DNA of 10,017 bases from Gammaproteobacteria bacterium (GTDB taxonomy: Bacteria; Pseudomonadota; Gammaproteobacteria; Xanthomonadales; Xanthomonadaceae). Both the position numbers and the translations under genes were made by a program. Positions 5,803-8,534 of this stretch are shown here, piece after piece. Within the stretch, counting starts at the first letter, position 1. Each line of letters opens with the position of its first letter. The notes beneath the pieces were generated by a model. It was not told where the DNA came from. It was given only the letters and a program-made list of their open reading frames with translations, and made no database searches. The stretch covers positions 1 through 10,017 of the forward strand of contig JAAZHF010000161.1 of NCBI GenBank assembly GCA_012510865.1, given 5' to 3'.

Positions 5803-6555
5803 TCAGTCGACGTCCTTCCAGTATTCCTTCTTCAGCAGCCACGCGAGGAAGGTGAAGAACGCAAGGAACAGGATGACCCAGACGCCGATCGCGTCGCGCT
5901 TGAGGGCGATCGGCTCGCCGGCGTACTCGAGGAACGCGGTGATGTCGCGCACCGCCTGGTCGAACTCCGCGCCGTCCATGGTTCCGGGCGTGGCCACTTC
6001 GAGGCGGTCGATCACGGGATCGCCGGTGGCCTCGTCCCTGCCGCCGTAGACCGGCCGCTGGACGCCCTGGAGCTCCCAGAGCACGTTCGGCATCGACGCG
6101 TTCGGGAACACGGTGTTGTTCCATCCCAGAGGGCGCTCGTCGTCGATGTAGAACGACTTGAGGTAGCTGAAGATCCAGTCGGGGCCGCGGACGCGAGAGG
6201 TCAGGCTCAGGTCCGGCGGCACGGTGCCGAACCACTGCGCCGCGCCCTCGGCCGGCATCGCGCTGAGGATGTGCTCGCCGAACTTGGCGCCGGTGAAGTT
6301 GAGGTTCTCCATCACCTCCTGCTCGCCCAGGCCGAGGTCCTCGGCCATGCGCGAATAGCGCAGGTACTTCAGCGAATGGCATGCCGAGCAGTAGTTCATG
6401 TACAGCTTGGCGCCGCGCTGCAGCGACGCGCGGTCGCCGAGGTCGGTGCCGGCCTGCTGGAGGCCCGCGCCCCCGGCGGCGAGCGCCGAGAACGAGAGCA
6501 GCATGGCGGCGGCGAAACCGGCGGCGCGGCCGATCAGGGTCATGGGCTTAGTCAT
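5803..6555 (-). CDS. petC: Cytochrome c1 subunit of the cytochrome bc1 complex
   Basis: A 250-residue cytochrome c1, which accepts electrons from the Rieske centre and passes them to soluble cytochrome c on the periplasmic side. A Sec signal peptide (~1-27, cleavage near ALAAG) is followed by the covalent haem site CSACH (56-60). Further on are PPDLSLTSRVRGPDWIFSYL (113-132) and NASMPNVLWELQG (152-164), whose M155 is the probable axial ligand. A C-terminal transmembrane anchor (~222-241) ends in the basic tail KKEYWKDVD. The gene overlaps the 3' end of petB by 8 nt, so it is translationally coupled; upstream pairing to the ribosome is weak (GGAACGGG). The separately encoded, ~250-residue c1 shows this is not the fused cytochrome b/c1 form. 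Confidence 0.97.
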   Translation of the reverse strand: MTKPMTLIGRAAGFAAAMLLSFSALAAGGAGLQQAGTDLGDRASLQRGAKLYMNYCSACHSLKYLRYSRMAEDLGLGEQEVMENLNFTGAKFGEHILSAMPAEGAAQWFGTVPPDLSLTSRVRGPDWIFSYLKSFYIDDERPLGWNNTVFPNASMPNVLWELQGVQRPVYGGRDEATGDPVIDRLEVATPGTMDGAEFDQAVRDITAFLEYAGEPIALKRDAIGVWVILFLAFFTFLAWLLKKEYWKDVD

Positions 6556-7807
6556 GCGTCGTCACCCGTTCCGGAACCGGCCTGGTGGCGTCGAGCCTGG
6601 TCCACAGCGGCATCGTGATGAAGAAGGCGAAGTAGTAGAAGGTCAGGAAACGGCCGACGATGGTCTCGACCGGGTCGGTGCCGGGGCCGGCGCCGATCTT
6701 GCCCGGCCACACGAAGCTCAGCGCGAACAGGCCGAGCAGCAGCTTCGACAGCCAGCCGCGGTAGCGGTACGAGCGGACCTTGGCGCGGTCGAGCCAGGGC
6801 ACCAGGAACAGGATCATGATCGCGCCGAACATGACCATCACGCCGCCGAGCCTGGCGGGGACCACCCGCAGCATCGCGTAGTAGGGCGTGTAGTACCACA
6901 CCGGCTTGATGTGCTGCGGCGTCACCAGGCGGTTCGCCTCGGGGAAGTTGTCGTGCTCGAGGAACCAGCCGCCGAAGGCGGGCGCGAAGAAGATGATGAA
7001 GGCCGCGATCATCAGGAAGAAGCCCACGCCCACCAGGTCCTTGACCGTGTAGTACGGGTGGAACGGGATGCTGTCCTTCGGCGCGGCGGGCGACCAGCGG
7101 TTGCCCTTCGGCCCCTTCTTGATGTCGACGCCGTCGGGGTTGTTCGACCCGACCTCGTGCAGCGCGCCCAGGTGCAGGACCACCAGCAGCAGCAGGACCA
7201 GCGGCAGCGCGATCACGTGGAGCGCGAAGAAGCGGTTGAGGGTCGCGTCGCTGGGCAGGTAGTCGCCCATGATCCACTCGACCAGGCCGTTGCCGATCAC
7301 GGGGATCGCGCCGAACAGCGAGATGATCACCTTCGCGCCCCAGAACGACATCTGGCCCCAGGGCAGCACGTAGCCCAGGAAGGCCTCGGCCATCAGCACC
7401 AGGTAGATCAGCATGCCGAGGATCCACACCAGCTCGCGCGGCTTCTGGTACGAGCCGTACATCAGGCCGCGGAACATGTGCAGGTAGACGACGATGAAGA
7501 ACAGCGAGGCCCCGGTCGAGTGCATGTACCGGATCAGCCAGCCCCACTCGACGTCGCGCATGATGTACTCGACCGAGCTGAACGCCTCGGCCGCGGACGG
7601 CTTGTAGTGCATCGTCAGGAAGATGCCGGTGACGATCTGGTTGACCAGCACCAGCAGCGCCAGCGAGCCGAAGTAGTACCAGAGGTTGAAGTTCTTCGGC
7701 GCGTAGTACTCGGTCATGTGCTTCCGGTACATCGGCATCATGCCCGGCGCGCGGTCGTTGACCCAGTCCATCACCGTGTTCGCGGTGCGCGTGATCACGT
7801 TCGACAT
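6548..7807 (-). CDS. petB: Cytochrome b subunit of the cytochrome bc1 complex
   Basis: A 419-residue full-length (N- plus C-terminal domain) cytochrome b with about eight transmembrane helices, carrying haems bL and bH and both quinone sites. Bis-histidine ligands are H96 (RYMHSTGAS) and H110 (YLHMFRG) in helix B, and H197 (FALHVIALP) and H212 (VVLHLGALH) in helix D. GYVLPWGQMSFWGAKVI (145-161) is the conserved cd1 region and HEVGSNNPDG (217-226) follows helix D. The Qo motif reads PVWY (302-305) in place of PEWY. The start ATG at 7807 lies 3 bp after the natural petA stop; an AGGGGG lies some 14 bases before it. The TAA stop is overlapped by the petC start. Confidence 0.98.
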   Translation of the reverse strand: MSNVITRTANTVMDWVNDRAPGMMPMYRKHMTEYYAPKNFNLWYYFGSLALLVLVNQIVTGIFLTMHYKPSAAEAFSSVEYIMRDVEWGWLIRYMHSTGASLFFIVVYLHMFRGLMYGSYQKPRELVWILGMLIYLVLMAEAFLGYVLPWGQMSFWGAKVIISLFGAIPVIGNGLVEWIMGDYLPSDATLNRFFALHVIALPLVLLLLVVLHLGALHEVGSNNPDGVDIKKGPKGNRWSPAAPKDSIPFHPYYTVKDLVGVGFFLMIAAFIIFFAPAFGGWFLEHDNFPEANRLVTPQHIKPVWYYTPYYAMLRVVPARLGGVMVMFGAIMILFLVPWLDRAKVRSYRYRGWLSKLLLGLFALSFVWPGKIGAGPGTDPVETIVGRFLTFYYFAFFITMPLWTRLDATRPVPERVTTHD

Positions 7808-7810
7808 GGC

Positions 7811-8446
7811 TTACGCGGCCCCCTGCGGATCGACGCCGACGACGATCGTGTTGTCGTCGACGAAATGGTGCGGCGGCACCACGAGGTTGGTCGGCGCCGG
7901 CACGCCCTGGTACACGCGCCCCGCCATGTCGAACTTCGACTTGTGGCAGGGGCAGAACTACCCGCCCTTCCACTCCGGGTCGAACGGCGCCGGGCCGATC
8001 TGCGCCACCATCTCGGGCGAGCAGCCCAGGTGGGTGCACAGGCCGACGAGCACCGAGCTCTCGGGCTTGAGGGAGCGCAGCTCGGGGCTGGCCTCGCGGA
8101 TGTAGTCGGGCTGCTGCTCGACGTTCTCGGACTCGGGGTCGCGCAGCTGGTCGTTGAGCGTGGGCAGCGCCTGCAGGATGGCCTGCGAGCGCTTCACGAT
8201 CCAGATCGGCTGGCCGCGCCACTCGAGGATCATGCGCTCGCCCTCGGCCAGGGCGCTGATGTCCGCGGTGACCGGCGCGCCGGCGAGCTGGGCGCGCTGG
8301 CTCGGAAACCAGCTCTTGATGAACGGAACCGCGGCCACGCCGACGCCCGCGGCGCCGACCACTGCGGTGGTGGCTGTCAGGAAGCGTCGGCGACCCGCGT
8401 CGACCGTGCCCCCCTCGACAGGATCCAGTACCCCTTCATTGCCCAT
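7811..8446 (-). pseudogene. petA: Rieske [2Fe-2S] subunit of cytochrome bc1, interrupted by an in-frame TAG
   Basis: The full frame is 211 codons, the family size, with one internal stop at codon 163. A twin-arginine signal/anchor (RRRFL at 19-23, hydrophobic 24-45) precedes the soluble domain. Cluster box I, CTHLGC, is at 137-142. The sequence then runs DPEWKGG, TAG, FCPCHKSKFDMAGRVYQG, so box II (CPCHKS, 165-170) and the last 48 codons lie after the stop in the same frame. Family members have Tyr or Phe at the stop position; TAC to TAG is a single change. Without box II two of four cluster ligands and the stabilising disulfide are lost, so the 162-residue product could not carry electrons. 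The frame ends at TAA 7813-7811, 3 bp before petB. ATG 8446 is preferred over GTG 8452 because a GGAG lies five bases upstream. It may be functional if the stop is a sequence error or is read through. Confidence 0.9.
7958..7960 (-). other. Premature in-frame TAG codon within petA
   Basis: The plus strand reads cta, that is TAG on the coding strand, between the glycine codons of EWKGG and the TTC of FCPCHKS. A tyrosine codon TAC is the expected reading and differs only at plus-strand position 7958 (C here, G expected). The stop is followed by T, not a context favourable to amber readthrough in E. coli. No frameshift or deletion accompanies it. Confidence 0.95.
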
Positions 8447-8534
8447 CGCCACTCCGAAAATCGTCCGGTCGCTGTTGTTCTGGCTGCCACGGGACGGGCG
8501 TCCGGTTCCGGAGGCCCGCCGTCAAAGACAATGA

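Follow-up and report, generated by a model that had tools for sequence, protein, structure and literature searches.

A premature amber codon in the Rieske gene petA of a Luteimonas draft genome is probably an error of the consensus sequence

In Luteimonas, the cytochrome bc1 complex is encoded by a petABC operon in which petA, specifying a Rieske iron-sulfur subunit of the TIGR01416 type with two cluster boxes, is followed by petB (cytochrome b) and petC (cytochrome c1). The 10,017-nucleotide stretch of DNA analysed here, referred to as the window, has the same gene order and encodes both boxes, but in place of the tyrosine found at petA codon 163 in the relatives it carries one in-frame TAG. 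A second body of knowledge against which such a codon can be read concerns short-read sequencing errors. According to passages of a review (PMC4719071), Illumina substitutions are most often A-C and G-T transversions, and the motif GGCGGG is linked to errors, chiefly indels. Sections of an evaluation study (PMC3334598) cite A to C as the error seen most often, report GGG and CGG as over-represented near error positions and find that Illumina data contain far more substitutions than indels.

The petA frame starts at a minus-strand ATG at 8446, with a GTG two codons upstream at 8452. The 162 codons preceding the TAG (7961–8446, minus strand) encode a TAT-signal anchor and cluster box I (CTHLGC), codon 163 itself (7958–7960, minus strand) lies directly 3' of GGCGGG, and the remainder of the gene (7811–7957, minus strand) opens with FCPCHKS (cluster box II) and ends in a TAA at 7813–7811, separated by a 3-base gap from the petB ATG at 7807. 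The initial annotation had placed a TAG at codon 163 of an otherwise intact frame, which was confirmed, whereas its count of 40 further residues had to be corrected: 48 residues follow the TAG, consisting of FCPCHKSKFDMAGRV and a further 33. When read through, the frame scored 218.7 bits against the TIGR01416 profile, covering it almost end to end, compared to 138.5 bits for the piece before the TAG (cut-off 97.4), and only the read-through version matched the Pfam Rieske family (PF00355); the frame is thus not a chance match. The read-through product is 94% identical over 211 residues to PetA from Luteimonas padinae, the nearest named petA in a search that may omit records very near the window. 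Under the standard code, no single product would contain both cluster boxes, box II lying behind the TAG. Besides the TAG, petA contains a second private change, defined here as a position where all genomes but one agree: codon 130 (8057–8059, minus strand) is AGC (Ser), compared to ATC (Ile) in 29 of 29 genus relatives.

The description of petB and petC as intact was borne out, both genes being open and matching their respective Pfam families. petB (6548–7807, minus strand; 419 amino acids) aligns with its relatives across all 419 columns and carries private changes at codons 319 and 368. petC (5803–6555, minus strand; 250 amino acids) shows no excess, with one private change in the source genome vs a mean of 1.9 across 13 relatives. 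In the single-contig genome of L. granuli, the last 73 residues of PetB match the petB of the window in another frame; that record may therefore contain an indel.

An alignment of codon 163 across relatives, one of the checks proposed in the initial annotation, revealed tyrosine throughout. The codon was TAC at 86 and TAT at 23 of 109 relative loci (some genomes being counted twice, once per collection), a TAG was found at none of them, and petA was free of inner stops in all 36 genomes of the same genus. Among 24 more distant genomes, a single one (G053) had a TGA reported inside its petA match; the gene itself is an open Rieske frame of 218 residues. The petB frame of that genome (L354, 240–638, minus strand) ends at 132 residues, and its match to the cytochrome b profile is confined to the first half, perhaps owing to a frameshift. 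A second petA had also been proposed as a way out of the functional puzzle, and none was found when the source genome was searched, the DNA search giving only a weak 56-base match on another contig (C225). When the 162-residue piece was compared to the protein database in search of short petA products, the best 120 of 4,348 matches were all full-length, with at least 203 residues.

The window corresponds to one contig (C404) of a 2.67 Mb draft in 469 contigs, which is 91% complete with 4.7% contamination. The 61 sequences sampled from it, i.e. the window and 60 further contigs (one read only to 20 kb), average 6.5 kb and amount to 398 kb, approximately 15% of the genome. This fragmentary state suggests a metagenome bin or low sequencing depth. 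A coding-potential scan of the 398 kb returned 11 candidate interruptions, of which seven were dismissed on visual inspection, being either weak or explained by normal adjacent genes; the four judged real by the same means are all TAG codons and lie in petA, gcvP, an M16 peptidase gene and a long gene on contig C3. The TAG in gcvP (contig C103, L214, 2366–2368, plus strand) replaces a codon for glutamine and that in the M16 gene (contig C401, L204, 4452–4450, minus strand) one for lysine, and 29 of 29 relatives sampled for each gene have the residue in question. For each of the two genes, 38 of 40 genus relatives possess a closely similar copy that is not interrupted. The gene on C3 forms a frame of more than 1,450 codons that runs off both contig ends, encodes a C-terminal peptidoglycan-binding domain and is interrupted by one in-frame TAG (L149, 1104–1106, plus strand). 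As it was found in none of the 40 genus relatives in which it was sought, its TAG cannot be judged against them. The same scan gave 25 unsorted candidates in L. granuli, a figure that does not serve as a control rate.

A tblastn comparison to 1.2 Mb of L. granuli, encompassing 65 genes and 19,323 aligned residues from 14 of the 61 source sequences, gave convincing stops only in petA and the M16 gene. Here, a stop in L162 was discarded by eye since the opposite strand reads as the true gene, and two TGA codons in L161 were discarded as the surrounding alignment is dissimilar. Three frameshift candidates in the sample were likewise set aside: in petB it is the L. granuli copy that deviates, L235 has a clean gene start, and the one in L161 was dropped by eye as falling in a poorly matching stretch. 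No inner stops were found among the listed matches to PF00005 in the source genome, nor in any of its 13 matches to PF00873, all of which were checked. In another poor draft (G064, 73% complete), a distant M16 paralogue with 36% identity contains one TAG (C15, 3583–3978, plus strand).

If the stops were random base errors, missense errors would have to be even commoner. Private missense changes were counted in five genes (petA, petB, a PF01464 lytic transglycosylase, gcvP and the M16 gene), three of which were picked for carrying a stop, and changes with a BLOSUM62 score of -2 or less were classed as radical. Stops aside, the source genome was odd at 10 positions, a total inside the relatives' range of 0 to 13, and only the radical class stands out: six of the 10 changes were radical, i.e. 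six in 2,541 columns vs nine in 73,353 columns of the relatives (0.31 expected; Poisson P 1e-6). The TAG in gcvP is accompanied by five private missense changes, each at a position that is invariant in the other genomes. Two further genes were picked regardless of stops. The transcription termination factor Rho (TIGR00767) of the source genome is 98% identical to its nearest relatives and has the private changes D142Y, S305R, H320P and V379G, three of the four being radical, vs three radical changes across 29 relatives together. Isocitrate lyase, on the other hand, showed no private change in the source genome across 425 columns, and in each of three relatives, out of 17, this enzyme carries two or three radical private changes. 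In another genome (G016), isocitrate lyase was matched in two slightly overlapping pieces (C1, 181873–183160), as if frameshifted. No private change was found in the lytic transglycosylase of the source genome either. An excess of isolated substitutions is seen elsewhere in the assembly, in the further TAG codons, the five-gene set and Rho; if it is error, the damage is uneven, isocitrate lyase and the transglycosylase being clean and petC showing no excess.

The private single-base changes also differ in kind from those of the relatives. T>G or A>C accounted for eight of 17 changes in the source genome, stops included, vs 12 of 121 in the relatives (Fisher P 5e-4), and the share of transversions was alike (12 of 17 vs 74 of 121; P 0.60). 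The change producing the TAG in petA is itself C>G, and thus neither T>G nor A>C.

The most exciting reading of the TAG would be that amber codons are decoded as sense, by a suppressor tRNA or programmed readthrough, yielding full-length PetA; if true, a gene of the respiratory chain would offer a remarkable example of amber suppression. It could draw on the fact that every one of the four interruptions judged real is a TAG, but with the codon usage seen here TAG results from 60% of all single-base changes to a stop, so that an all-TAG outcome has a chance of P 0.21 for three of three and P 0.13 for four of four. The TAG codons furthermore occupy tyrosine, glutamine and lysine positions, and consequently no single decoding restores petA, gcvP and the M16 gene. 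A reassignment of TAG was rejected as the codon serves as an ordinary terminator, ending 28 of 206 clear genes in the sample, similar to 95 of 630 in L. granuli. A tRNA with a CUA anticodon, which the initial annotation had suggested looking for, was not present at the 34 tRNA loci found in the 91% complete genome; the recovered set also lacks tRNAs for Tyr, Trp, Phe and Ile, and a suppressor could accordingly sit outside the assembly. At one of the tRNA-bearing sequences (L140, 806–1076, plus strand), ARAGORN predicts two tRNA-Leu genes (anticodon TAA) approximately 100 bases apart, and Rfam only the second. Among the publications listed on Rieske proteins with amber codons, readthrough or nonsense mutations, and among those on premature stops in metagenome-assembled or draft genomes, nothing was recognised as such a case. 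Suppression would also leave the missense excess unexplained, and we regard it as scarcely credible. The same applies to a variant in which a suppressor that is missing from the assembly, or of an unconventional kind, lets this Luteimonas lineage tolerate ambers in core genes (petA, gcvP and the M16 gene), TAG being partly sense and still a terminator; this, too, is exceedingly improbable.

More serious, and still unlikely, is a real nonsense mutation that arose recently in this strain or in a fraction of the sampled population, with loss of complex III and respiration via a cytochrome bd quinol oxidase. A gene for cytochrome bd subunit I without inner stops is present on contig C287, and going by known physiology a loss of bc1 could for this reason be survivable. 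A young mutation would fit a single clean stop in an otherwise intact petA frame, no second petA was found in the source genome, and the clean isocitrate lyase indicates that some genes of the draft are unaffected. However, petB and petC are still open, and a real mutation in petA requires the nonsense and radical missense changes in gcvP, the M16 peptidase and Rho to be real as well. Extending the argument to the whole lineage, many core genes might be gathering real damage under relaxed selection, and the scatter of nonsense and radical missense changes over several core genes would speak for it. The changes, though, are single-base substitutions with the T>G/A>C skew, two of the three frameshift candidates are not in the source genome and the third, in L161, was set aside by eye as poorly matching, and the total of 10 private changes is unremarkable among the relatives. 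Such a decay is very improbable, considerably more so than a lone recent mutation.

Instead, we conclude with good confidence that the TAG is a single wrong consensus base, stemming from a sequencing or assembly error, in an otherwise ordinary petA. Comparable single-base oddities occur in further conserved genes of this assembly, and the petA codon is for that reason most likely a mistake and not new biology. In a Luteimonas draft this fragmented, and perhaps covered by few reads, one incorrect consensus base would suffice to make the TAG, and the organism itself would most likely have an ordinary petA with tyrosine at codon 163 and a normal cytochrome bc1 complex. The further nonsense and radical missense changes in the draft are, judging from the sequences compared, likewise inferred to have arisen in sequencing or assembly and not by real mutation. 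The preference expressed at the outset for a base-call error or a very recent nonsense mutation over readthrough is therefore upheld, with error fitting best on the basis of the tyrosine at 109 of 109 loci, the glutamine and lysine positions of the other TAG codons and the radical missense excess in the five genes and Rho. More generally, when a draft genome shows a solitary in-frame stop, the yardstick ought to be how densely other private changes occur at invariant sites across that assembly.

Compared to the substitution errors described for short-read drafts, the locus differs in that the petA change is C>G. What it shares with them are the scattered single-base changes across the draft, their T>G/A>C skew and the GGCGGG motif at the petA site.
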